Under the pieces are notes generated by a model. It ran no database searches and was not told the DNA's origin. It saw only the letters and a list, made by a program, of their open reading frames with translations. 64,000 nucleotides of DNA from positions 1-64,000 of the forward strand of contig NZ_PVEO01000004.1 of assembly GCF_002973595.1 (NCBI RefSeq). Reading direction: 5' to 3'. The translations under genes were made by a program, and so were the position numbers. This DNA is from Jejuia pallidilutea (GTDB lineage: Bacteria > Bacteroidota > Bacteroidia > Flavobacteriales > Flavobacteriaceae). Shown here one piece after another: positions 14,047-30,320 of the stretch. How positions within the stretch are numbered: the stretch's first letter is position 1; every line of letters begins with the position of its first letter.

Positions 14047-15768
14047 GTGTTTTTTAAAAAATATCTTTGCTTGCTTTTTTTAAAGGTAGTTAATCTATCT
14101 ACCTTGCTTAATATTCTCTTTCTATTTCCTCTTTACGATGAAAGGCAAGAAGATAAGCTTGTAACGTATCAAGATTCATTACAAGGTAAAAGTTATAAAG
14201 AACTAATTGACTCAACAGATGAGGCCTTTTATAACAATGATACAACACTTCTAAATATATACAGAAACTACCATCTAAAAAAAGCTAGAGCCGAGAAAAA
14301 CAATTTAGAGATGGCTCGAGCTTATTATTCTTATATAGGTTGGGAAAATTTAAGTAGCGATTTGGCTTATAGCGATTCCTTAATTGAAATCACGAAAAAT
14401 GAAAAATACGACGCTTATCCTACCACTGGATACTTATTAAAAGCTAAGCTTTATTACAATCACCATAATTACAATAAAGCTTTAGATAACTATATAACTG
14501 CACTTAGGTTGTCTGAAACTAAAAAGGATAAAGTAGGAGAATTGGAAGCCGTTTTGGGTATCGCAGCCATTAAGAATGTTTGGGGTTTGCATGAAGAGGC
14601 TCTGGACATATACAGGAAGAATTATTTTGATATTATAAAATCACCCCACTATCTCCGGGACTATTATTATGAGTACGTACAGTTGACAAATAATTTTTCA
14701 CTATCACTTATTCGAAATAATAAGCTCGATTCTGCCCTCATGATAGCCAGAGATGGCATGAAGGCAACTAAAGATATAAATGATTTGCAAAATTACTACG
14801 ACCTAGGAAAAGTCCATGCTACAGCTAACTTTTATCTAAAAAAGTATCCGCAGGCTTTAGATTCTTTACTGAAATTCTCATCAAATTATTCGGATGGTAT
14901 CCTGATGGACAGCTACTTTATGATAGGGAAGATTTATCAATACCAGAATAAGGACTCATTAATGATCGAGTCTTTTAAGCGAATAGATTCCATTCATAAA
15001 ATTATAAAAGACCCCTATCCAGAGTTAAGGAAAGTATATAATGAACTTTTTAAATATGCTGGACAAAGTGAAGATAAAGAACAGCAATTATATTATATCA
15101 ACCAACTTTTGACCGTGGATAGTGTGTTAGATATAAACTATACCAATGTAAATGAGAAAATGCGTATGGATTATGATATTCCAAAGTTCAAAAAAGAAAA
15201 ACGAATATTGGAGAGAAAGTTATATTCTAGACAACAATTGCTCATAGCCAGTTCTATAATGGTTTTTATCTTAATGTTGTTTTTGGTTTTCTATTATAAA
15301 CGGCAGAAAAAGTTTAAAAAAAGACTCCAAAGGCTTTTAGATGGAGACTTGCCAATGGTCTCTGTACCTAAGGAAACATCTAAAATCAAACCCCTATCTG
15401 GAATTTCAGAACTTATTGTAGAAGATGTTTTAGAAAAGTTAAATGCCTTTGAAGCATCGAAAGCATATCTTTCTAAAAATATAACCCTGAATGACCTGGC
15501 CAAGGAATTTAATACAAATTCAACCTACTTATCTATGATTATAAATTATGTAAAGCAGGTAAACTTTTCAAGCTATTTAAAGGATTTGAGGATTACAAAT
15601 GCGGTAAATAGTATTAAAAAAGACCCTAGTTTTCTAAAGTATTCCATGAACGGTCTTGCAGACCAATTTGGATTTACAACCGCAGAATCTTTTTCAAAAG
15701 CATTTCGGGAGAAAACGGGTATTAAGCCATCATACTTTTTAAATGAATTAAGAAAAAACAAAATATAG
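14047..15768 (+). CDS. Membrane-anchored TPR / AraC-family regulator
   Basis: A 573-residue protein starting with GTG at 14047. The order is a hydrophobic N-terminal signal or anchor (about 5-28), TPR-like helical repeats (about 60-380: NYNKALDNYITALRLSETKK, KYPQALDSLLKF and others), a transmembrane helix (about 398-416, IASSIMVFILMLFLVFYY), a basic linker and a C-terminal AraC HTH domain (about 470-570, ITLNDLAKEFNTNSTYLSMI ... SFSKAFREKTGIKPSYFL). This topology senses something in the periplasm and acts on DNA in the cytoplasm. It heads the peptide-export cluster and is its likely regulator. A direct TATAAAT repeat spaced by 22 bp lies just after it, before the peptide gene. Confidence 0.85.
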   Translation: MFFKKYLCLLFLKVVNLSTLLNILFLFPLYDERQEDKLVTYQDSLQGKSYKELIDSTDEAFYNNDTTLLNIYRNYHLKKARAEKNNLEMARAYYSYIGWENLSSDLAYSDSLIEITKNEKYDAYPTTGYLLKAKLYYNHHNYNKALDNYITALRLSETKKDKVGELEAVLGIAAIKNVWGLHEEALDIYRKNYFDIIKSPHYLRDYYYEYVQLTNNFSLSLIRNNKLDSALMIARDGMKATKDINDLQNYYDLGKVHATANFYLKKYPQALDSLLKFSSNYSDGILMDSYFMIGKIYQYQNKDSLMIESFKRIDSIHKIIKDPYPELRKVYNELFKYAGQSEDKEQQLYYINQLLTVDSVLDINYTNVNEKMRMDYDIPKFKKEKRILERKLYSRQQLLIASSIMVFILMLFLVFYYKRQKKFKKRLQRLLDGDLPMVSVPKETSKIKPLSGISELIVEDVLEKLNAFEASKAYLSKNITLNDLAKEFNTNSTYLSMIINYVKQVNFSSYLKDLRITNAVNSIKKDPSFLKYSMNGLADQFGFTTAESFSKAFREKTGIKPSYFLNELRKNKI

Positions 15769-15783
15769 TTTAAATAAAGTACA

Positions 15784-15819
15784 CGTAATTTATAAATGGC
15801 GAGTGTAATGTCTATAAAT
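15784..15819. promoter_or_regulatory. Direct-repeat operator candidate before the peptide gene
   Basis: CGTAATTTATAAAT (15784-15797), then TATAAAT again at 15813-15819, a 22-bp period. AraC-type proteins bind such direct repeats two helical turns apart. The same 14-mer, with a second TATAAAT 21 bp on, recurs at 21765-21799 before rteC. Binding is inferred. Confidence 0.5.
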
Positions 15820-15874
15820 GAATAACACGCTTTTATACATTTATAAAAAATTATTAATCCAAAAATTGAAGATT

Positions 15875-16015
15875 ATGAAATCAACAAGACAAAAAAAAAC
15901 TAAAAACCAAGAAGGATTTGTCCCTAAGAGAATTAGTAAACCAGAAATGATTGTTGGAGGAGGTGGAGGACCTATAATAGATAAGGATAAAATAAGAACT
16001 CCAAAGCGAAGATAG
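15875..16015 (+). CDS. Candidate secreted-peptide precursor (46 residues, Gly5 run)
   Basis: The small frame is open from 15818, but ATG 15875 gives the natural peptide: a basic N-terminus (MKSTRQKKTKNQEGF), a mid part VPKRISKPEMIV, five consecutive glycines (residues 27-31), then PIIDKDKIRTPKRR. It has no Cys and few aromatics. The downstream exporter carries a C39 peptidase, an enzyme class that cuts precursors after a double Gly; cutting after the first GG would place Ile at -4 and leave a 17-residue basic, proline-containing product. It lies between the regulator and the S9 peptidase on the same strand. That it is the exported substrate is an inference; the match to the usual leader pattern is only partial. 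Confidence 0.55.
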   Translation: MKSTRQKKTKNQEGFVPKRISKPEMIVGGGGGPIIDKDKIRTPKRR

Positions 16016-16039: not shown

Positions 16040-18217
16040 ATGTATATGAAACATGTCTTTCTGGTTTTTTGTTTTACTATAGTTTTTAACTGCACAGGTA
16101 AAAAGGAGGTTAATGCTTATCAAAATTACCCATTCATAGAAAAGGTATCAGTAAGGGATACCTGTTTTGGAAACGTTATAGGCGATTCCTATCGGAATAT
16201 AGAAAACCTTCAGGATACTGTTGTAATAAATTGGTTTGAGGCTCAAGACGCCCATACAGAAAAGTTTTTGGGACAGTTTATAAATCAAGAAAGAATTTCC
16301 GACCAGATAAAATCCTATTATTTCAATAAGGAGCAAGCAGTTTCAAGTGTAAAATATACAAATTTTGGGTCTGTTTTTTTTCTGAAAGCAGATATTAAAA
16401 ACAGTATTGAAAAGCTTTACTACAGAAAAAATAAAAACGCTGAAGATGTTTTGTTATTTGATCCAAGAGTATTTAAAAAGAATCTAAATCGGGAATATAC
16501 CATTAATTATATCCAACCCTCATGGGATGGACAATATGTTGTGGTTTCCCTGAATTATGATGGGCTTAAAAGTTCGGATATTATCATAGTAAATGTAAAG
16601 AGCCAAGAAGTGCTTCCAGAGGTGATTTCAAACACTGCACCAGATATCTATCTGGGCATCTCATGGCTTCCAGACTCCAGTGGTTTTTTATATCTATATA
16701 TTCCTATTTTAGATTATAATGATGAAAACTACATGCTGAACTCTAGCACGGTACTACATAAGCTGGGGGACAATCCTAACAAGCGACGGATTGTTTTTTC
16801 ATCAAAATCCAAACCAGAAATTACTGAGGAAGATTTACCCATTGCAAAAATATTGTCACCCAAAGACAAATATCTTATAGGCTATAAAGCTTCAGTTGAA
16901 AACTATTGGTCAGCATTCTATGCTGATATAAATGATTTAGATAAGGAGGTCATTCATTGGAAACCATTATATTCATCAAATGAAAAAGTCTATGCGGATT
17001 ATGGCTATTTTATTAAGGACAAGTTTTTTTATATTTCTGGAAAAGAAGCGGATAATAGAAACATTTCCAGTTTTGATATTATAAAAGATGTATTACCGAG
17101 TCCAACCGTTCTGGTTCCTGAAAAAGAAGATGAAGTCATATCCTCATTGCAAATTACGAGCAATAGCCTTTATTACACTACCTCCAAATATGGGGTTGAG
17201 TCTTTTCTGTATGAGTATAAAGACAATCAAGTTTCAAAATTAAAATTACCACATGCTTCAGGAGCTATAAACATTTATAGCAGCTCTAATGAAAATTTTA
17301 ATTTATATTTGGGTATAGATGGATGGACTGTTGATTATAAACGGTATATTTTTGATGGTTCCCAGTTTCAATTAGACCCATTATCAAACCACCAAAGTTA
17401 TCCAGAATTTGAAGCATTGGAAGTGAAAGAAATTCAAATAATCTCACATGATGGTGCTGAAGTACCGGTCTCACTAATATATAGAAAGGACATAAAAATG
17501 GATGGGACAAGTCCTGTACTATTATATACATACGGTGCATATGGAGAATCCATTACGCCCTATTTTTCTCCTATATATCTTAATTGGGTTTTAAACGGTG
17601 GTGTGTTTGTTGTTCCACATATTAGGGGAGGTGGTGAAAAAGGAGATTCATGGCATAAAGCTGGAATGAAATCTAATAAGTCAAATTCATGGAAAGATAT
17701 TATTGCCTGTACGGAATACTTAATAGAGCAAAAATATACTTCCAAGGAAAAAACCGTGCTTTACAGCAGTAGTGCAGGAACTGTATCTACAGGTATGGCC
17801 ATGGTTGAAAGACCAGATCTGTTCAGTGTTTTTATTGCAGTTGTCCCCATGCTAAATCCTTTGCGTAGTGAAGCACGAGCCAATAACGCATCAAATTATT
17901 TGGAGTATGGTACAATAAAGGATTCCATCGAATGTATGTCACTAATCAAAATGGACCCGTATGTAAACCTTCAACCAAACACAACCTATCCTGCATCATT
18001 AATTATCGCAAGTTTTAATGATGCCCGTATTGATGCATGGATACCCGGAAAATTTGCAGCTAAGTTACAAGAAAGCTCAAATTCGGGCGCTCCTGTTTTT
18101 TTAGATATTATTTATGATGCGGGCCACGGTGGAGGTGATACCATGGAAGAACAAATAGAGGAATATGCCAGGGTATTTGCTTTTGCATATTGGCAAACCA
18201 ACCATAGTTTAAAATAA
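16040..18217 (+). CDS. Prolyl oligopeptidase-family (S9) lipoprotein
   Basis: A 725-residue protein with a lipoprotein signal ending FNC (start M1 or M3), so it is predicted in the cell envelope. Residues about 30-440 would form the beta-propeller, and about 470-720 the alpha/beta-hydrolase domain, with HIRGGGEKGDSWHKAGM typical of prolyl oligopeptidases. The catalytic triad is readable as Ser578 in YSSSAGT, Asp in FNDARIDAW and His in AGHGGG. The nucleophile elbow is unusual: the family normally has GGSxGG, but here both glycines before the Ser are serines and the last Gly is Thr. It lies 24 bp after the peptide gene and 15 bp before the exporter. A role in trimming, cyclising or degrading the exported peptide is inferred. 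Confidence 0.85.
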   Translation: MYMKHVFLVFCFTIVFNCTGKKEVNAYQNYPFIEKVSVRDTCFGNVIGDSYRNIENLQDTVVINWFEAQDAHTEKFLGQFINQERISDQIKSYYFNKEQAVSSVKYTNFGSVFFLKADIKNSIEKLYYRKNKNAEDVLLFDPRVFKKNLNREYTINYIQPSWDGQYVVVSLNYDGLKSSDIIIVNVKSQEVLPEVISNTAPDIYLGISWLPDSSGFLYLYIPILDYNDENYMLNSSTVLHKLGDNPNKRRIVFSSKSKPEITEEDLPIAKILSPKDKYLIGYKASVENYWSAFYADINDLDKEVIHWKPLYSSNEKVYADYGYFIKDKFFYISGKEADNRNISSFDIIKDVLPSPTVLVPEKEDEVISSLQITSNSLYYTTSKYGVESFLYEYKDNQVSKLKLPHASGAINIYSSSNENFNLYLGIDGWTVDYKRYIFDGSQFQLDPLSNHQSYPEFEALEVKEIQIISHDGAEVPVSLIYRKDIKMDGTSPVLLYTYGAYGESITPYFSPIYLNWVLNGGVFVVPHIRGGGEKGDSWHKAGMKSNKSNSWKDIIACTEYLIEQKYTSKEKTVLYSSSAGTVSTGMAMVERPDLFSVFIAVVPMLNPLRSEARANNASNYLEYGTIKDSIECMSLIKMDPYVNLQPNTTYPASLIIASFNDARIDAWIPGKFAAKLQESSNSGAPVFLDIIYDAGHGGGDTMEEQIEEYARVFAFAYWQTNHSLK

Positions 18218-18232
18218 ACGAATGATAATAAC

Positions 18233-20410
18233 GTGTTTCCAAATTTCAGGCAAATAGATACCAAAGATTGCGGAGCAACATGCTTGAAAATCATTGCGAA
18301 GCACTATGGAAAGATTGTTTCAATAGATGAATTGAGAATATACTCAGAAACATCCAGAACAGGAAGCAATCTTAAATTTTTGGCGAAGGCTGCTGAAACC
18401 ATAGGATTGAAATCACTCCCTGCAAAAATTGATTTTAAACAATTAAAAGAAGCTCCACTGCCTTGTATTTTGCACTGGAATAAAGACCACTTTGTGGTGC
18501 TCTACAAAATTAAAAAGAAAACCTGTTTTATTTCAGACCCAGCTGTAGGTCATGTAAGCTATAAGAACGATGAATTTATCAAACAATGGATTGGTAATAA
18601 TGCCAATGAACTTACAGAAGAGGGCGTAGTACTCTTATTAGAACCAACTTTGTACTTTCATTCTAAAACTTTCAATCTCGCCAGCCAATCACTGAGTTTT
18701 TCCTTTATTCTAAAGTATCTATCTAGATATAAATCTTTTTTGTGGCAGTTATTCTTTGGGCTGTTGGCAGGAAGCATTCTACAGCTCATTTTTCCATTTT
18801 TGACTCAAAGCATCGTCGATATTGGTATTAGAAACCAAGATATTCAATTTGTGTATTTGATTCTAATTGCACAATTATTTTTATTCGTGGGAAGAACAGC
18901 AGTTGAACTCATTAGGAATTGGATATTGTTGCATTTGAACACCCGTATCAACATATCCATGTTGTCCGACTTTTTTCTAAAATTGATGGGGTTGCCTATT
19001 GCTTTTTTTGACACACGAGTTACTGGAGATATTTTGCAACGCATAGGCGACCACGAGCGTATTGAAAAATTACTGACATCATCTTCATTACAAGTACTTT
19101 TTTCCTTGGTAAATTTTGTGATATTTGGACTGGTTTTAATGTATTACAGCATTTCCATATTTATAGTATTCCTCATTGGTAGTTTGGCATATCTAGGCTG
19201 GATACTATTATTTCTTAAAAAACGAAAGGTTCTGGATTACAGGGAATTCAAGGAAACAGCCAATGAGCAGAGTAAAGTTATAGAACTTATAAATGGCATG
19301 CAGGATATTAAACTACACAATGCGGAGCAAGAGTTTCGTTGGGATTGGGAATATATTCAGGCCAGATTATTTAAGATAGCTGTAAATCGTATGGCTTGGG
19401 ACCAATATCAAGATATTGGTTCAGGATTTATCAACGAGCTGAAGAATATATTGGTTACCGTTTTGGCAGCCAAATTGGTTATTGATGGCGAGATTACCTT
19501 AGGTATGATGTTAGCGGTAAGTTACATTGTGGGGCAATTAAACGCACCAATAATACAATGCGTTGACTTTATTAGAGATTGGCAAGATGCCAAAATATCA
19601 TTAGAACGGCTTTCTGAAATTCATGGAAAAGAAGACGAACATATTCTGGATAATGGTCTTGTACAGTTTTCTGAAACCTCAGATTTAGAATTGGTTAATG
19701 TCTCTTTTAGATATTCAGGAGTAGAAGTTCCAACTTTAAGAAACCTTAACTTGCTTATTCCCCAAAATAAGGTAACGGCAATTGTTGGAAGCAGTGGGAG
19801 TGGTAAAACAACTTTAATGAAACTTCTGTTGCAATTTTATCAACCACAAGAAGGGCTGATAAAGGTTGGAAACGTATCGCTGAAACACATTGCCTATCAA
19901 TGCTGGAGAGAATGTTGCGGAACAGTAATGCAAGAGGGCTATATCTTTAGTAACACCATTGCCAGAAATATTACCATGGGAGATAACCCAGTAAATCAAA
20001 AAAAGCTTCAAAAATCTGCACAATTGGCCAACATCAGTAGTTTTATCGAGACGTTGCCTTTAGCCTATAATACGGTTATAGGAGCCGAGGGCATAGGACT
20101 TAGCTCGGGACAAAAACAACGTATTCTGATCGCGAGGGCTATTTATAAAAACCCAAAATATTTGTTTTTTGACGAAGCCACATCTGCTTTGGATGCCAAT
20201 ATCGAAAAAGAGATCATGAAAAATATGGAAACGTTCTTTTTGGGCAAAACGGTAGTTATTATAGCCCATCGCTTAAGTACAGTGAGAAACGCAGATCAAA
20301 TAGTGGTATTGGAAAATGGCCAGATCAAAGAAACCGGTAACCACAAATCACTAACTGCTTTAAAAGGAAGCTACTATAGTTTGGTGAAAAACCAATTGGA
20401 ATTAGGTTAA
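18233..20410 (+). CDS. Peptidase-containing ABC exporter (C39, PCAT type)
   Basis: A 725-residue protein starting with GTG 18233 (no usable ATG). Residues 1-135 are a C39 peptidase with catalytic Cys13 in DTKDCGATC, His in HWNKDHFVVLY and Asp in SDPAVGH. A six-helix ABC membrane domain follows (about 160-440), then the nucleotide-binding domain with Walker A GSSGSGKTT, signature LSSGQKQR, Walker B YLFFDEATSALD and H-loop IIAHRLS. All catalytic residues are present. PCAT proteins cut Gly-Gly leaders and export the mature peptide. Sits between the S9 peptidase and the adaptor, 3 nt from the latter. Confidence 0.93.
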   Translation: MFPNFRQIDTKDCGATCLKIIAKHYGKIVSIDELRIYSETSRTGSNLKFLAKAAETIGLKSLPAKIDFKQLKEAPLPCILHWNKDHFVVLYKIKKKTCFISDPAVGHVSYKNDEFIKQWIGNNANELTEEGVVLLLEPTLYFHSKTFNLASQSLSFSFILKYLSRYKSFLWQLFFGLLAGSILQLIFPFLTQSIVDIGIRNQDIQFVYLILIAQLFLFVGRTAVELIRNWILLHLNTRINISMLSDFFLKLMGLPIAFFDTRVTGDILQRIGDHERIEKLLTSSSLQVLFSLVNFVIFGLVLMYYSISIFIVFLIGSLAYLGWILLFLKKRKVLDYREFKETANEQSKVIELINGMQDIKLHNAEQEFRWDWEYIQARLFKIAVNRMAWDQYQDIGSGFINELKNILVTVLAAKLVIDGEITLGMMLAVSYIVGQLNAPIIQCVDFIRDWQDAKISLERLSEIHGKEDEHILDNGLVQFSETSDLELVNVSFRYSGVEVPTLRNLNLLIPQNKVTAIVGSSGSGKTTLMKLLLQFYQPQEGLIKVGNVSLKHIAYQCWRECCGTVMQEGYIFSNTIARNITMGDNPVNQKKLQKSAQLANISSFIETLPLAYNTVIGAEGIGLSSGQKQRILIARAIYKNPKYLFFDEATSALDANIEKEIMKNMETFFLGKTVVIIAHRLSTVRNADQIVVLENGQIKETGNHKSLTALKGSYYSLVKNQLELG

Positions 20411-20413
20411 TGC

Positions 20414-21706
20414 ATGGAAAGGTCTGAAAAGGAAATAACCATACGAAGTGAGGAAGTCCAAGACATCCTAAATAAGGTACCATCAAAACTCATACGTTGG
20501 GGCAGTATTATTTTTCTTGGACTTATTGTGTTGATGATTTGTCTTTTATGGCTGGTAAAATATCCCGATGTTATAACAGCAGAAGCTTATCTGACCACTG
20601 ATCCGCCTCCCCAAAAAATCTATGCTAGGGTAGATGCCAAAATCGATACGATTCTGTTATTTGATAAAGATTATGTTAGTAAAAATACGGTTATTGCTAT
20701 TCTGGAAAATTCATCTGATAATAAAGATGTACTTTTTTTGAAGTCAATATTGGATACAATTACCTTGACCCCAGGGCAAGTGTTTTTTCCATTTAAGGAA
20801 TTACCATTACTGTTTTTAGGAGAGGTTGAACTTCAGTTCTCAGAATTTGAAAATGCTTATTTTGAATATAGCATGAATCGAGACTTAAAACCTTTTGATG
20901 GTAAAATAAGAGCCAATAACACCTCTTTGGCAGAGTTGAAAAACCGTCTCAAAAACTTGATAAGCCAAAAGGAAATCAGTCGCAGAGAACTTGGTATTAT
21001 AAAAAAAGATTTAGACCGTTATAAAGCTTTATTGAAAAAGGGTATTGTTTCACAACAGATGTATGAGAACAAGCAGGTCGTTTTTTACACAGCTTCCAGA
21101 GAATACGAGAACGCTATTTTTTTGATTTCCCAGATAAAAGAATCAATAGGCAATTCCCGAAGAGATTCCCAAAACATAGATTTTACCAAATATCGGGATG
21201 AGAACCAACTGTTAAAAAAAGTACTTCACTCATATAAAGAATTGAAAAGGACAATAAGTGATTGGGAGTTAAAGTATGTTCTGAAATCAAGGGATAGTGG
21301 TATTTTATCATTTGTAGAATATTTGGATAAAAATTACAACGTTTCCAAAGGAGACTTGTTGTTTACCGTATCACCAAGTCACACACCTTTTTATATTGCA
21401 AAAGTTAAAACTCCAAAGGTAAATGCGGGAAAATTAAAGATAGGGCAACACGTAAATCTAGAGCTTAATGATTATCCAGATTATGAATTTGGAGTCTTAA
21501 AAGGAAGCGTGTCCAACATATCAAATGTATCCGATGAAAATGGCGCCTATATAGTTGATGTTAAAATTACTAAGGATTTAAAAACAACTTTCGGTAATAC
21601 AATTGCCTTTAAGCAGGAAATGAAAGGAACAGCAGATATCATAACTGAGGATCTGCGATTATTGGAACGTTTGTTCTACCAATTCAAAGACCTATATTCC
21701 AAATAA
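20414..21706 (+). CDS. HlyD-family membrane fusion / adaptor protein
   Basis: A 430-residue periplasmic adaptor: short cytoplasmic N-terminus, one membrane helix (about 31-50, IIFLGLIVLMICLLWLV), a split lipoyl/barrel-sandwich domain, a long coiled coil (about 165-285, LAELKNRLKNLISQKEISRREL and on) and a beta-barrel domain. It links the ABC exporter to an outer-membrane channel. No TolC-like gene is in the cluster, so a channel from elsewhere is implied. It is 3 nt from the exporter, clearly co-transcribed. Confidence 0.9.
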   Translation: MERSEKEITIRSEEVQDILNKVPSKLIRWGSIIFLGLIVLMICLLWLVKYPDVITAEAYLTTDPPPQKIYARVDAKIDTILLFDKDYVSKNTVIAILENSSDNKDVLFLKSILDTITLTPGQVFFPFKELPLLFLGEVELQFSEFENAYFEYSMNRDLKPFDGKIRANNTSLAELKNRLKNLISQKEISRRELGIIKKDLDRYKALLKKGIVSQQMYENKQVVFYTASREYENAIFLISQIKESIGNSRRDSQNIDFTKYRDENQLLKKVLHSYKELKRTISDWELKYVLKSRDSGILSFVEYLDKNYNVSKGDLLFTVSPSHTPFYIAKVKTPKVNAGKLKIGQHVNLELNDYPDYEFGVLKGSVSNISNVSDENGAYIVDVKITKDLKTTFGNTIAFKQEMKGTADIITEDLRLLERLFYQFKDLYSK

Positions 21707-21931: not shown

Positions 21932-22744
21932 ATGGACTTCCCCTCCCGTCTTTACATATTTCAAAATGCATTGAAACAGATTCAAAAATCAGATTTGAAT
22001 ATTTTCATGAAGTGCAACGAGGCTATAGTATTAAGTCGAAAGTTGCTTTCGGAATTCAGAAAAGAAATTAGTACAAACGGTTTTAAATCCATTACTGAGG
22101 AAATCACTTTTTTTAAGAACTATAAACAAATACCTTTTAGTTATCTCATTTACTATTCCAAAATATATGCTTTTGAAAGTGAATTTTCTAAAGTGCCAAA
22201 AGTACAAAGGCAATCTTCCATAGATAAATTTAGAAATAAGGCTTATCAATTTTTAATGCGCCATATAGATTTTGTGAATTATATTGAACAGGGACAAACA
22301 CATTTGGATATACCATATTTTACGCGAGGTCAGTCAGTTCAAATTATGATGATGCATACGGATGATAATTTCTACGACTTAGATTTCAATACTTCACACG
22401 ACCATTTATTGGCAAAAGTTTTAGCCAGCAAAAGATTTATTGACTACTTAGAAAATCGTTTGCATGTATATCCAACGCTTTGCCAGAAATCTACGCTACA
22501 ATGGACTTCCAGCAAGGTGGCACTGACCGAATTGATTTATGCTCTATATCATAGTAATACTATCAATTATGGGAATACCGACATCAAGGAGATTGCAGAT
22601 GTAATGCAAAAATTGTTCAATTGTGAATTGGGAGATTTCTACAAAGTGTATTCAGAAATAAGAAATCGTAAAAAAAGCAAGACTAAGTTTTTAGATGAAC
22701 TTTCTATGCAACTAATCCATGCGATGGACAAAATCGATTCTTAA
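21932..22744 (+). CDS. rteC: RteC-like regulator
   Basis: A 270-residue protein matching RteC of CTnDOT-type elements in its central part: FTRGQSVQIMMM, FYDLDFNTSHDHLLAKVLASKRFIDYLENRL, and the C-terminal WTSSKVALTELIYALYHSNTINYG ... IADVMQKLFNCELGDFYKVYSEI. In CTnDOT, RteC activates excision genes by binding upstream of xis2c. Here the next gene downstream is a small excisionase-like protein, fitting that logic. RteA/RteB sensor and regulator genes are absent. Confidence 0.85.
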   Translation: MDFPSRLYIFQNALKQIQKSDLNIFMKCNEAIVLSRKLLSEFRKEISTNGFKSITEEITFFKNYKQIPFSYLIYYSKIYAFESEFSKVPKVQRQSSIDKFRNKAYQFLMRHIDFVNYIEQGQTHLDIPYFTRGQSVQIMMMHTDDNFYDLDFNTSHDHLLAKVLASKRFIDYLENRLHVYPTLCQKSTLQWTSSKVALTELIYALYHSNTINYGNTDIKEIADVMQKLFNCELGDFYKVYSEIRNRKKSKTKFLDELSMQLIHAMDKIDS

Positions 22745-24554: not shown

Positions 24555-24698
24555 TCTGGTATTAGTTGTAATAATTTTTGGAAATCCGTAAGAAATTGTA
24601 TTAAAATATTAATATATTTATAAACGATTACCGTAGAATGAAGTTTGACCGAGCTAATGGGAAATCATTGGCTTTTTTATTGTTTCAAAATAATTATT

Positions 24699-26813
24699 AT
24701 GCATATAAGCTCACTATCCATAAGGAATTTCCGAAATTTCTGTAGGTCAAAATTCATCTTCAAAAAAGGCATAAATACTATTTTAGGCGAAAACGGTTCT
24801 GGTAAAACAAATCTTTTTTTTGCATTACGAGTTCTAATTGACGACAAACTTCCAAGATATATTAGATTTAATGAGTCTGATTTTAATAGAGGTTTAGGTA
24901 AATGGGCTGGCCATTGGATGATTCTGTCGGTCACTTTTGAAGATTTAGATGCAAGTGAAGAAGCCCAAGTACTGGCAGTACAATCTTCTGGAGATATGGA
25001 TGGAAACAAAAAAACCGGAAGTTATTCGGTCTATTTTAGACCCAAATATCAGTTCAGAAAAGAGCTTTACGATTACTCACAAACAACAGGTAAAACTGTG
25101 GAAGGACTTCAACTTTATCTTGATAAGCTTACAATCGATGATTATGAAACATCTTACCTGTGTAGAGGTACTGGAGATTTCAGCGATGATAATACTTATA
25201 AAAAATATATTGGGGATTTTGATAATGTTGAATTTCCTAACCCCGATGATAAGGAAGAACTAATTTTCGGAACATTTCTGCCAAGAGAAATTAGTGTACA
25301 TAATGAAGTTTCTTGTACGTTTATCAAAGCTCTACGTGACGTCGAAAGCGACTTACGTTCCTATTCCACTAATCCTTTAATAAACTTACTAAGAGGAAAA
25401 GAAAAAACTGTTGAAGTTTCTAAACAAACCGATATAATTGAAAGCATCGATAAACTCAACGACCAGATTAGTTCTCTTAAAGAAGTGAAAGAGGTCAAAG
25501 ACGGAATTGATAAAAGTATTAAGGAGGCTGTGGGTACAACTTATGGGCCAAATATAGATGTAAAATCCGAGCTTCCGAATGATATGGAAAAGCTATTGCA
25601 ATCGCTCAAATTATGGGTTGGAGACCCAGATGAAGAGGGCTATATGGGCAAAATCTGGGAGCTTAGTCTAGGTGGTGCAAATATGATTTACCTATCACTT
25701 AAGTTATTGGAATATGAGAAAATAAGGACAGATAGAATTGCAAATTTTCTTCTTATAGAAGAACCAGAAGCACATATTCACACACATATCCAAAAAACAC
25801 TATTTGATAACGTACAAACAAATAGAACCCAAGTTATCATTTCAACCCACTCTACTCATATTTCATCCGTTAGCCGTATAAGTTCAGTAAATATCTTAAG
25901 TCGAACAAATAAACAAACATTGGTATATCAACCAGCAAACAATCTCGATGATGAATATATAACAAGAGCCGAAAGGTATTTGGATGCCATAAGAAGTAAC
26001 TTGCTTTTTGCAAAAGGTGTTGTCTTGGTTGAAGGGGATGCAGAACAAATCCTCATTCCTCAAATGTTCAAAAAGGTCTTTGGAATTTCGCTCGATGAAA
26101 TTGGGGTCAGTCTTGTAAACATTGGAAGCACAGGTTTTAAAAATGTTGCAAGGCTTTTTCATGGAGATAGAATTCAAAAAAACTGTGCGATATTAACCGA
26201 TTTAGATGCCAGTATAGTTGATTTACCTGCAAATGCAGATGATGATTCTACTTATGAAAAGCATTGCAGAGCTTCGGAAGTTAGTGGTGCTGAAAGAAAG
26301 ATAAAACTTGATAAATTTTGCAACAAAAACAGCTTTTTATCCCCTTTTTACTCTAGCTATACTTTTGAGGTAGATGTACTCATGAACGGTAATAGTCATG
26401 AATTCATTGAATCACTTGATGAAATTTTTAAACAACAAGCAGCTATTGAAACTTCAAAGAAAAAATTAGAGGACAAATCAGTTTCAATAGCCGGTGTAGA
26501 AGTTTTGCGATTGGCAGATAAAAAAGGTAAAGGTTGGCTTGCTTTGGTTGTTGCAGATAATTTAGTTTACAACACATATATTCCTGAGTACATTTTGAAA
26601 GCTGTTGCTTTTGCATCTTCCCATCTAAATAATGCATCTAAAGTTAAAACTGCTAAATACAGGTTACGAAAAATTAGCCGCAGTAAAAATGATAGTTATT
26701 TTGAAGTAGCATCAAAAGTCAGCTTTAAGGGGAAAGAAGACCAACAGGTTATCGATGAGTATATTGCCAGTTTTCCTAATGACCAATTTGCCAAATTCTT
26801 GTCGTATTTATGA
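24699..26813 (+). CDS. OLD-family ATPase-nuclease, GajA-like
   Basis: A 704-residue protein from ATG 24699 (MHISSLSIRNFRNFCRSKF), preferred over an upstream in-frame start because OLD proteins begin at this strand. Walker A GENGSGKT (30-37), a long insertion with the ABC-like dimer part, Walker B FLLIEEPEAHIH (about 350), then a TOPRIM domain (about 440-535) with VVLVEGDAEQ and ILTDLDAS, the Glu and DxD expected for metal-dependent cleavage. Class 2 OLD nucleases next to UvrD helicases define Gabija anti-phage systems; GajA is usually about 580 residues, so this one is long. The helicase start overlaps its stop by 4 bp. Confidence 0.88.
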   Translation: MHISSLSIRNFRNFCRSKFIFKKGINTILGENGSGKTNLFFALRVLIDDKLPRYIRFNESDFNRGLGKWAGHWMILSVTFEDLDASEEAQVLAVQSSGDMDGNKKTGSYSVYFRPKYQFRKELYDYSQTTGKTVEGLQLYLDKLTIDDYETSYLCRGTGDFSDDNTYKKYIGDFDNVEFPNPDDKEELIFGTFLPREISVHNEVSCTFIKALRDVESDLRSYSTNPLINLLRGKEKTVEVSKQTDIIESIDKLNDQISSLKEVKEVKDGIDKSIKEAVGTTYGPNIDVKSELPNDMEKLLQSLKLWVGDPDEEGYMGKIWELSLGGANMIYLSLKLLEYEKIRTDRIANFLLIEEPEAHIHTHIQKTLFDNVQTNRTQVIISTHSTHISSVSRISSVNILSRTNKQTLVYQPANNLDDEYITRAERYLDAIRSNLLFAKGVVLVEGDAEQILIPQMFKKVFGISLDEIGVSLVNIGSTGFKNVARLFHGDRIQKNCAILTDLDASIVDLPANADDDSTYEKHCRASEVSGAERKIKLDKFCNKNSFLSPFYSSYTFEVDVLMNGNSHEFIESLDEIFKQQAAIETSKKKLEDKSVSIAGVEVLRLADKKGKGWLALVVADNLVYNTYIPEYILKAVAFASSHLNNASKVKTAKYRLRKISRSKNDSYFEVASKVSFKGKEDQQVIDEYIASFPNDQFAKFLSYL

Positions 26814-28585
26814 TTTTAGATACTCTAAGCGACCAACAGAAAGATGCCGTTATTAAAGTCGGTAATGTACTTCTTACTGCTTGCCCAGGAAGTGGAAAAA
26901 CTCGGGTAATCATCCATAAACTTGCTCATGCTTTAGAAAACGTTGATGAAGACAGTAAACAAAGAGTAGTGGCACTTACCTTTACCGTAAGAGCTTCTGA
27001 AGAAATATATCGCAGATTAAATGCGATGGGTATAAACAGTAAACGTGTTTGGTCTGGCACTTTGCATTCGTTTTGTCTTGAATGGATTATTAAACCTTAT
27101 TCCTGTTATTTGCCTGAACTTGAAAATGGATTTTTAATTGCAGACGAAACTTATGCTTCGGGTATTATAAGTGAACTAAAGGAAAAACATAAACTGAAAC
27201 CCATTGATCCGATTAATTTCAGATTTAATAGGGACGGAACATTTGCTGAAGCAAAAACTATTCAGAAAAGGATACTTAAAGAATATCACGAAAGACTGCA
27301 ATCAGAAAAGTTAATTGATTTTGAACTTCTACTTTATTACTCATACAAACTTTTAACCAAGCATCCGAAAATAAAAAAAACGCTATCAAACATTTTCAGC
27401 CTTATATGTGTTGACGAATACCAAGATACACAGGATTTGCTTTATGCAATTATTTCCTCCATTATTATAACAGGGGAGGGTAGCTCAAATCTTTTTCTAG
27501 TTGGAGATACTGACCAAGCAATTTATGCTTCTTTAGGAGGTGTAGCCAAAAGTCTGGAGGAAATACAAAATGAATTGAACACTTTACCCATTGAACAACT
27601 TACGCTTTCAGGGAATTACAGGTCAACACAAAGAATTATTGATTTTTATTCAATATTCCAGACAAATCCAATTAAAATCGAAGCAATTGGCAAAAATAAA
27701 GACGATGATAGCATAATAACCTACAACAATACAATTGAAAAAGGATATTTGGTTGATGAAATCGCACGACTTATAGAGTATAGTTTAGATAACGGAATTC
27801 CAGAAGGCGAAATTTGCGTATTGGTGCCACAATGGTGGTTAATTACTACAATAACGAAACGGTTAAGGGCTAAATTGCCAGATGTGAATTTTGATGCTTC
27901 CGGTCTAGCACCAATGTCGAAAAACCGAAATAACATTTGGTATAAATTATCTAGATTGTTCTTGACACAGCCAAAGCCAAGAATATACTCGTTACGATAC
28001 AAATGGTGTACTGATGTAATTGAAAATTTCAAAGAACACACGAATACAGAATTCAATGAAAAGTATCAAACTGAAAGAAACGTCTTAAAACTAATTAATT
28101 CAATATCATCCGATGAGACTGAAGGCATCGATTATTTAAATGACTGTTTTGACCAATTTTTGGATGCTGTTGGTATTGACCAAACCATTTACGAGCAACT
28201 TCTTATAAACAGAAAGACTTTCTTTGATGTTATAAAGAGCCGCCTTGAAGACCCAGATTTTCAAGTTCCAAGTGATATAATGTCTTTTATGAGTTTTTAT
28301 AGAGAAATGTCAGGTGTTGTCATCAATACTTGCGTAGGTGTTAAAGGAGAAGAATTTGAAACGGTTATTGCCTATGGTTTGTTAAATGGATTTGTACCAC
28401 ATTGGAATGACATTTTCAATGCAGACCCTGTTGCCGCTTCAAAAAAATTACTTTACGTGATTTGTTCAAGGGCAAAGACCAATTTACACTTGATTTCAGA
28501 AACGGGAAGAAAAACCAAAAGAGGAAACCCGTTAGAGATTACCCCAGAATTGCAAAATCTTGATTTTGAATTTGATGAGATTTAA
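26810..28585 (+). CDS. UvrD/Rep-type helicase, GajB-like
   Basis: A 591-residue SF1 helicase. Motif Q LSDQQKDAV, Walker A TACPGSGKT (23-31), Ia VVALTFTVRASEEIYRRL, Walker B ICVDEYQDTQ, motif III LVGDTDQAIYASLGG, motif IV LSGNYRST, and C-terminal motifs VGVKGEEFETVIAYGL and YVICSRAKTNLHL are present, so the enzyme looks intact. Overlap with the OLD nuclease gene shows translational coupling. In Gabija, GajB senses DNA ends and nucleotides released during infection and activates GajA. Here a third gene follows 34 bp downstream. Confidence 0.9.
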   Translation: MILDTLSDQQKDAVIKVGNVLLTACPGSGKTRVIIHKLAHALENVDEDSKQRVVALTFTVRASEEIYRRLNAMGINSKRVWSGTLHSFCLEWIIKPYSCYLPELENGFLIADETYASGIISELKEKHKLKPIDPINFRFNRDGTFAEAKTIQKRILKEYHERLQSEKLIDFELLLYYSYKLLTKHPKIKKTLSNIFSLICVDEYQDTQDLLYAIISSIIITGEGSSNLFLVGDTDQAIYASLGGVAKSLEEIQNELNTLPIEQLTLSGNYRSTQRIIDFYSIFQTNPIKIEAIGKNKDDDSIITYNNTIEKGYLVDEIARLIEYSLDNGIPEGEICVLVPQWWLITTITKRLRAKLPDVNFDASGLAPMSKNRNNIWYKLSRLFLTQPKPRIYSLRYKWCTDVIENFKEHTNTEFNEKYQTERNVLKLINSISSDETEGIDYLNDCFDQFLDAVGIDQTIYEQLLINRKTFFDVIKSRLEDPDFQVPSDIMSFMSFYREMSGVVINTCVGVKGEEFETVIAYGLLNGFVPHWNDIFNADPVAASKKLLYVICSRAKTNLHLISETGRKTKRGNPLEITPELQNLDFEFDEI

Positions 28586-28619: not shown

Positions 28620-30320
28620 ATGAAGAAAATAAATTTAGAGCAAAAATCATTAGAAATTCAAAATATAATTTCTAGGTACACAAAGGAAAGCTTTGTTTGC
28701 TTTTTTGCTGATTTCATAAGGCACCATCCGGAAAGAAGAAATACAGGGTTTTCAGAGAAATTCAAGTCAAAACTAAAAGACTCTTTATATTTAATAATGT
28801 TAAGGCTTTCAACACCATTGGAAGGTAAAGAAGAGCTTCGTTATTCAAAAGAAAGCGATTTAGTACTTCAGCAAGTTGCCGATATTCTGTTGGAGATAGT
28901 TAGTTTTTATTTATCAGAGAATTATGATGAATTTGATGAGATTACTGATAAAAGGCAAAGGCTACTTGTTCACGAATTAGCGTTTAAAAATTACTTCCAA
29001 AATGGAATATTGAATTACAGAGAGCAAGAGATAAATAAGGTCATTAGGATGTTTAAACCCTACCAAGATAAAACTCAGAAAAGATTGGGAATCGATTTAA
29101 AAACCTTGATTGATTTATGTACTCATTCTGAATTAATATATCGAGCAAAATCAATAAATTCAAAGTCATTTATCTTGGACAAAAAATTTGACAAATTGGC
29201 TCGGCAATCTGCAAATGGATTATTAGCTGAGAATGAGTTTGCTGATAAGCTTTTGGAACTTTCCGATGAAACCCAAGAAAGTTTTTTGAATTTTTTTGAG
29301 AATCCCCATCAATGTTTACTTTTTACCAAACAAGACTTTCTTCCTTCTATTGAAGAAAAGTATATTGATATTTTCTGTGATTTGTTTTCGATTGACATTA
29401 AGGATACCCACAGTAATTTGTTCTATTCCCAACAAAATCCTTTAGAAAATAAACCGATTATAAAAATTAGTAATAATAAGTATCTAAACATCTATCAAAA
29501 ACAATTGCCTTCAGCTTTGTATGACTTACTCTATACCACTCTAACCCAGACCAAGAAAGAAAAAGAACAACTAAACTTTCGTAAAGGAAAAGTTGTTTTG
29601 GAAAACCACACTTTAGAATTATTCAAGAAGTTCTTCAAAAAATCAAAGAGGGTTAGTTTTTTCACTAACTATTACATAAACAATCATCCAGAAGAAAAAG
29701 ACATCTTAATAATTGCAGATAAAAATGCCTATATCATTGAATGTAAAGCATCAAGATATAGAGAACCGAGAAGAGATACAGAACAAGCCTATCAAAGAAT
29801 TAAATCAGACTTTGCCGACTGTATTCAAAAAGGGTATGACCAATGTTATCAGGTGGAACAAGAATTAATAAACAATGAAAAAGTTGTTATTGCTTTTAAA
29901 GGTAAATCGGAAGTAATTCTCAGAAATGATATTCACGAAATTTTTTCCATTGTAGTTACTTCAGAAAGATTTGCTTCCATACAAACGGATTTAGGCTTAT
30001 TACTTAAAAAAGATAATGCTGACCCCTATCCTTGGTCAATTTATGTTGATGATTTAGAAACTTTTTTGAAAGCAATTTATAATAGATTTAGTAATCCTTC
30101 TAGAAAGATTTTTGAGTTTTTGGAACACAGGGAATTGCTACATAAAAGACTTATAACAAATGACGAATTGGATGTTTGTGCTATGTTTTTACAAAATCCA
30201 AAACATTTTAAAGAATTATGTGAAAGTGAATATGTTGTCTTTACCGACCCTACGTTGCAAAATTATTTTGACAAATTATATTTTGACAAAAAACTAAAGT
30301 TTAAAATTGAGGATTATTAA
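28620..30320 (+). CDS. PD-(D/E)XK nuclease-like protein, third gene of the defence operon
   Basis: A 566-residue soluble protein. Residues about 1-320 are helical with no motif I know. Residues about 325-450 have the pattern of a PD-(D/E)XK nuclease: Glu in KVVLENHTLELFKKFF, Asp361 in EKDILIIADK, Glu374-Cys-Lys376 in YIIECKAS, and a following helix with TEQAYQRIKSDF. The C-terminal ~120 residues are again helical. It lies 34 bp after the helicase on the same strand, so it is probably part of that operon. The two-gene Gabija systems I know lack such a gene; it could be an extra effector or a separate unit. Confidence 0.65.
   Translation: MKKINLEQKSLEIQNIISRYTKESFVCFFADFIRHHPERRNTGFSEKFKSKLKDSLYLIMLRLSTPLEGKEELRYSKESDLVLQQVADILLEIVSFYLSENYDEFDEITDKRQRLLVHELAFKNYFQNGILNYREQEINKVIRMFKPYQDKTQKRLGIDLKTLIDLCTHSELIYRAKSINSKSFILDKKFDKLARQSANGLLAENEFADKLLELSDETQESFLNFFENPHQCLLFTKQDFLPSIEEKYIDIFCDLFSIDIKDTHSNLFYSQQNPLENKPIIKISNNKYLNIYQKQLPSALYDLLYTTLTQTKKEKEQLNFRKGKVVLENHTLELFKKFFKKSKRVSFFTNYYINNHPEEKDILIIADKNAYIIECKASRYREPRRDTEQAYQRIKSDFADCIQKGYDQCYQVEQELINNEKVVIAFKGKSEVILRNDIHEIFSIVVTSERFASIQTDLGLLLKKDNADPYPWSIYVDDLETFLKAIYNRFSNPSRKIFEFLEHRELLHKRLITNDELDVCAMFLQNPKHFKELCESEYVVFTDPTLQNYFDKLYFDKKLKFKIEDY

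Follow-up and report, generated by a model that had tools for sequence, protein, structure and literature searches.

A short double-glycine peptide encoded between a TPR-transmembrane-AraC regulator and an S9 protease on a conjugative element of Jejuia pallidilutea: a candidate autoregulated exported signal

The peptide unit and its genomic setting

We identified a compact five-gene unit in the window, the whole 64,000-nucleotide stretch of the Jejuia pallidilutea genome analysed here. The genes follow one another in the order regulator, peptide, S9 protease, C39 exporter and HlyD-type adaptor, and all five are open. The features of the unit and its immediate neighbour are:

14047..15768, plus strand: regulator of 573 amino acids with a TPR array, a transmembrane segment and an AraC domain (Pfam, AlphaFold model, hydropathy)
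15781..15806, no strand assigned: palindromic operator-like element, ACACGTAATTTATAAATGGCGAGTGT, with its centre 82 bp before the peptide ATG; conserved in the two closest loci (L021 and L022, introduced below)
15822..15846, plus strand: second conserved block, ATAACACGCTTTTATACATTTATAA, conserved in three loci (window, L021 and L022)
15875-16015, plus strand: peptide precursor gene of 46 codons, MKSTRQKKTKNQEGFVPKRISKPEMIVGGGGGPIIDKDKIRTPKRR
15875-15961, leader (29 codons, ending in GG); 15962-16012, product (17 codons); 16013-16015, stop codon; all three placed from the alignment of homologues
16040..18217, plus strand: S9 (prolyl oligopeptidase family) protease with a lipoprotein-like N-terminus (Pfam Peptidase_S9 3.9e-39, S9_N 8.3e-27)
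18233..20410, plus strand: C39 peptidase/ABC exporter (Pfam Peptidase_C39 1.3e-34, ABC_membrane, ABC_tran)
20414..21706, plus strand: HlyD-type adaptor (Pfam HlyD_3 2.4e-9; TIGR01843 4.7e-17)
21932..22744, plus strand: RteC, a conjugative-element regulator, treated as a neighbour and not counted in the unit (Pfam RteC 2.7e-57)

The C39 domain of the exporter keeps the active-site Gln, Cys, His and Asp, as judged by eye against known C39 motifs, and the Cys13, His and Asp motifs are present in the window and seven relatives.

The unit lies inside a conjugative element, whose genes (window 11274-38024, encoding DUF5712, a T4SS coupling protein, the TraG P-loop ATPase, TraM, DUF4138 and RteC) surround the peptide operon and a Gabija pair. 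RteC adjoins the unit in eight of 13 core loci, an adjacency that could mean either that the site accepts cargo or that the unit is linked to transfer. The Gabija defence pair of the same element, GajA and GajB (24645-28585; PADLOC PDLC00072, E 1.3e-286, and PDLC00127, E 3.4e-227), is followed at 28620-30320 by the gene for a 566-amino-acid protein in which a nuclease-related domain (NERD) is weakly matched (4e-5). The list of open reading frames, the sole source for this assignment, places a probable polysaccharide-use locus with glycoside hydrolases, a sulfatase-like protein and a SusC/SusD-like pair at 38332-61243.

A family of short double-glycine precursors

The closest homologues of the exporter among 84,980 species genomes are those of Confluentibacter lentus (L021) and Yeosuana marina (L022). 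Both loci carry a short frame at the same position (MKSKTEKKAKSLSKFSNKKIKNPEAIIGGGDGPIDRDKIRTSERR and MKTTSKPTPNALSKFLKKKITNSESITGGTNGPIDRDKIKIPIRR, respectively), intact, with no frameshift or stop, and 58% and 44% identical to the window peptide. Both frames begin with MK at the matching position, and the start was therefore placed at 15875; an alternative in-frame ATG upstream, at 15818, would encode 65 amino acids. A profile built from these three sequences and run against 397 genomes of Flavobacteriaceae gave weak matches (best at E 3e-6 to 6e-4, ~25-40% identity), and the peptides found in this way are flanked by a homologue of the same regulator and, nearly always, by an S9 protease homologue. 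The exceptions among ten fetched loci are L099, where an S8 protease lies in between, and L102, which ends at a contig end. Because intact homologues occupy the same position and the profile recovers further members between the same genes, the frame is not a product of chance, and its sequence relatives indicate that it is almost certainly a real peptide precursor. This bears out the initial annotation, which had described the 46-codon frame and its sequence and had seen in it a precursor sitting where one is expected. That annotation had looked to homologous short frames for a conserved GG and had named broken homologues as evidence against a precursor; the GG is invariant in all 13 aligned members, and none of the 13 frames is broken.

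Other routes to the family were less productive. The single 46-amino-acid query gave, apart from itself, chance-level matches in most relatives and none in plasmids; one of its weak matches (G006) turned out to be a true relative. A scan for Gly-rich short frames at the other exporter homologues yielded no peptide relative, and since the exporters beyond L021 and L022 have no S9 gene and no adjacent regulator, the exporter is of little help in locating the peptide. Neither NCBIfam nor Pfam contains a family that covers the peptide, and a search of viral contigs returned no relatives of the regulator.

In the alignment, homologue leaders end in a single GG (residues 28-29 in the window), followed by at least two variable residues and then, in most members, by Gly-Pro. 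The glycine run of the window thus comprises the leader GG, two Gly at the variable positions and Gly32 of the conserved Gly-Pro, and it is five residues long because both variable residues happen to be Gly here. The initial annotation had regarded any of the GG pairs as a cleavage option, leaving a product of 14-17 residues; the alignment instead ends the leader after Gly29 and assigns Gly32 to the Gly-Pro of the product. Nor does Ile at -4, previously considered only a partial fit, depart from the double-glycine pattern: positions -4, -7 and -12 are those at which the groove of the C39 protease LahT accepts hydrophobic residues (PMC6363468). The family departs from the classical (ComA/LahT) pattern at other positions, having no hydrophobic residues at -7 and -12; the positions mostly kept in its leader are -15 (Phe/Tyr), -10 (Ile/Leu) and -4 (hydrophobic). 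In our own alignment with L103 and L104, position -10 aligns with the final Leu of the LxLxKx5L motif, which is found in leaders of Bacteroidetes class I lanthipeptides, many of them ending in GG (PMC7268733). No Sec-type signal sequence is visible in the 46-amino-acid frame. With its GG leader and conserved hydrophobic positions, the frame fits the double-glycine (C39) precursor class, and we predict that the precursor is very probably cut at the GG and exported.

The predicted product, GGGPIIDKDKIRTPKRR, has 17 residues and a pI of about 11. It contains one Thr and no Cys, and the sister products of its clade also lack Cys. The expectation of a variable tail behind a conserved GG fails in this clade, where the part after the GG is more conserved than the leader: mean pairwise identity among the eight members is 48% for the product and 36% for the leader, and reaches 71% for the GPIDRDKI motif.

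Regulator, operator-like palindrome and protease

The regulator has a TPR array at about residues 50-340, a transmembrane segment at about 398-416 and an AraC helix-turn-helix at 484-566. Pfam matches are clear for the AraC part (HTH_18 1.6e-9, HTH_AraC 1.2e-6) and weak for the TPRs; the AlphaFold model (pLDDT 87) has a paired-helix array as in TPR proteins, a long helix with the transmembrane segment, and the AraC domain. By hydropathy, the segment, with basic residues after it, occurs at the same place in 13 of 13 regulators. This position and the basic residues that follow predict a periplasmic TPR array and a cytoplasmic AraC domain. The regulator is single-copy in the host genome at E 1e-5. 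It belongs to a large family, many members of which have no adjacent peptide gene. The product type of the window's clade is confined to a single clade of the regulator tree (support 96/90), requiring one change on a tree in which several branches are long, and GPIDRDKI is kept while regulator identity drops to about 30%. Three genomes (G088, C1:1056317-1066648; G172, C1:1587373-1603292; G264, C3:122613-126007) carry up to five or six TPR-TM-AraC homologues in tandem, with gaps too short for much to lie between neighbours.

The regulator and peptide genes are separated by 106 bp. A 100 bp stretch between them is 75-78% identical among the window, L021 and L022; at fourfold-degenerate sites of the regulator, protease and exporter genes of the same three loci, identity is 27-40%. 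This stretch contains a palindrome centred on ATTTATAAAT, near-perfect in L021 and L022 and imperfect in the window (8 of 11 pairs; p 0.72 against shuffles when taken alone, not significant), where its weight comes from conservation and family-wide occurrence and not from its own pairing score. Of the 23 regulator-peptide pairs with enough upstream DNA, 14 have a palindrome that lies 70-95 bp ahead of the peptide ATG and pairs at 9 or more of 11 positions; the corresponding number in 300 shuffled sets averaged 0.68 and never exceeded 4. Once reach into the regulator gene is allowed, 11 of the 13 core loci have the element, though its centre differs in L102 and its arms are imperfect in the window, L097, L098 and L101; it was not found at L095 and L099. 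Its single match in the host genome is the peptide site. The second block (15822..15846), which likewise has no further match in that genome at up to 3 mismatches, is probably a half-site and, we infer, the promoter.

Since the palindrome lies just 3' of the regulator gene in many loci, we considered whether it could be the terminator of that gene and irrelevant to control of the peptide. It has no loop, and its centre is AT-rich and conserved. Its distance to the peptide ATG is nearly constant (73-93 bp), whereas that to the regulator stop ranges from -3 to +54, with the element straddling the stop codon in L096, L097, L098 and L101; this spacing argues that the palindrome goes with the peptide promoter. 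Among regulator homologues fetched regardless of peptides, those without a peptide are also without the palindrome, some having ordinary hairpins. On the spacing and on this absence beside peptide-less regulators we rejected the terminator as highly improbable. The element is probably an operator under the control of the neighbouring TPR-TM-AraC regulator, which would bind it. As a DNA signature for finding more members, one could use a ATTTATAAAT palindrome followed about 85 bp later by a short GG frame.

The best PDB match of the protease is 2bkl (4.7e-74). The protein has the Ser-Asp-His triad of S9A prolyl oligopeptidases, Ser578-Asp661-His696, invariant in 13 of 13 sequences, and their N-terminal propeller, and the N-terminus is lipobox-like in most of the 13. 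In prolyl oligopeptidases a Trp of the S1 pocket stacks on proline; the 2bkl alignment places Asn619 at this position in the window, and none of the 13 has Trp. The third place of the unit, after the peptide, is taken by an S9 or a subtilase (S8) protease in most relatives, L120 and L131 being the exceptions among loci where the next large gene is readable. The S8 assignment comes from Pfam matches to two full-length proteins (1e-35 or better) and to six fragments, of which three score below the curated cut-off. That unrelated peptidases of two families share this slot suggests a common task, the simplest being cleavage of the exported peptide, and it is reasonably likely that the secreted protease acts on the peptide. 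By its topology, the regulator would expose its TPR domain on the side of the inner membrane where the protease also lies. In L104 (8853-13269), two S9 protease genes stand in tandem behind one peptide gene.

Possible functions and comparison with known systems

The overall explanation that we favour, with modest confidence, is an autoregulated exported peptide, a signal probably read by the TPR domain. The steps with good sequence support are that the C39 domain encoded downstream would cut after Gly29; that the exporter, HlyD and an outer-membrane channel of the host would release the 17-residue product; that the peptide gene would be driven by its own promoter with the palindromic operator; and that the TPR-TM-AraC protein encoded upstream would act on this operator. 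The secreted S9 protease may then trim or destroy the exported peptide. In the weakest step, the product would be the ligand of the periplasmic TPR domain, making the unit a self-inducing peptide signal with a one-component membrane receptor in place of a kinase pair.

We propose the product as the TPR ligand only tentatively. The higher conservation of the product than of the leader points to a fixed target, for example a receptor, rather than a fast-changing toxin, and favours such a fixed partner. The agreement between product type and regulator clade could be explained by plain co-inheritance, and the many TPR-TM-AraC regulators without a peptide beside them mean that the peptide need not be the ligand. 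Reading of the signal would require the exported product to remain in or return to the periplasm, which we count against it; the missing proline-pocket Trp and the palindrome missing at L095 and L099 likewise count against the favoured explanation. More doubtful is the specific possibility of a Gram-negative peptide-pheromone system carried on a conjugative element, in which a membrane-spanning AraC regulator would use its periplasmic TPR domain to read the GG peptide, perhaps with a bearing on transfer of the element.

The main rival, which we consider rather unlikely, is that the product is an unmodified antimicrobial peptide (a microcin- or class II-like bacteriocin), with the regulator answering another cue and the S9 protease either maturing the peptide or protecting the producer by destroying it. 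Bacteriocin export usually relies on a GG leader, a C39 exporter and HlyD, the product is small and basic, and some relatives adjoin a lanthipeptide-type split LanB, lanthipeptides often being antimicrobial (PMC7268733). Such a toxin accords poorly with a product more conserved than its leader and a GPIDRDKI motif that persists beside such divergent regulators, and no immunity-like gene is common to the window, L021 and L022.

The split LanB genes lie directly before the regulator in L099 (3837-6734), L103 (3509-6585) and L104 (3757-6859), in company with the regulator, GG peptide and S9 protease. They tie the leader to Bacteroidetes class I lanthipeptides. Clustering recognised no LanC in the fetched stretches of these three loci, and two of their products are very Asp-rich. 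Weak matches to the class I lanthipeptide leader, below its cut-off, occur in several more distant relatives. We found neither LanB nor LanC among the open reading frames of the window operon or its neighbourhood. The window's branch is best seen, on its gene content, as an enzyme-free branch of a wider group that includes Bacteroidetes class I lanthipeptides. The presence of split LanB in some relatives and in none of the window's branch might also indicate decaying cargo of the conjugative element, a LanB-type cluster remnant that has lost its modification enzymes and its function. This is the least probable of the readings considered, given five open genes, intact catalytic residues and strong cross-species constraint on the upstream DNA.

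To our knowledge, Bacteroidota offer hardly any known cases of peptide quorum sensing, which is well established in Firmicutes. In the accessible literature we found no described TPR-AraC/GG-peptide pair in Bacteroidota, and the unit looks like a peptide-signalling system of a kind that we did not find described in Gram-negative bacteria. Should the peptide prove to be read by the regulator, then sensor, operator, signal, protease and exporter would form a complete circuit within a single small operon. Whether or not it signals, the unit of regulator, operator, peptide and protease identifies a family of small precursors that escaped the profiles tried and that comprises LanB-associated and enzyme-free branches.

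Among known systems, class I lanthipeptides (NF038153 lant_leader_L1a; Walker et al. 2020, PMC7268733) share with the window the GG leader, the C39 exporter and Ile/Leu at -10, and relatives with the same regulator and S9 gene (L099, L103 and L104) adjoin split LanB. The window peptide differs in having no LanB or LanC, no Cys and no NF038153 match, and in its conserved product. As class I lanthipeptides are defined by LanB and LanC and by Ser/Thr and Cys in the core, the window peptide, judged by its genes and residues, does not qualify as one. Another family of GG-leader peptides, some side by side (L134, L136, L139, L140, L143, L147, L148 and L149), belongs to a different family of the order; their leaders resemble KKPFFASFLEKQLKDPETVKGG and they have a KYPSDGDDD-like tail in common, and no related regulator was found within 1.5 kb of these peptides.

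ComC/ComA and other Gram-positive exporters of GG pheromones resemble the unit in combining a short unmodified GG peptide with a C39 exporter in one operon. They differ in leader pattern, and the window unit has a one-component membrane regulator and no two-component system; ComC profile matches are very weak in three members of the peptide family (best E 0.026). FlaP, a prolyl oligopeptidase of class III lanthipeptide clusters, is of the same type as LanPB. Prolyl oligopeptidases of the LanPB type in class III lanthipeptide clusters (PMC7268733) likewise pair a POP-family protease with a small precursor. Unlike LanPB and FlaP, the window protease is predicted to be secreted or a lipoprotein in a Gram-negative cell, is replaced by S8 in sister loci, and does not conserve the proline-pocket Trp.

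RRNPP pairs (Rap-Phr, PlcR-PapR and AimR-AimP) have a propeptide gene beside that of a TPR regulator, often on mobile elements (PMC10075063), and in the window, too, a small propeptide gene adjoins a TPR regulator gene. RRNPP propeptides are exported by Sec, whereas the window peptide would leave by GG/C39 export from a Gram-negative host. The RRNPP receptor is cytosolic and of 250-500 amino acids, whereas that of the window has 573 amino acids and is predicted to cross the membrane, joining a periplasmic TPR array to AraC. On the pheromone reading, the window system would be the one-component, membrane-crossing counterpart of RRNPP.
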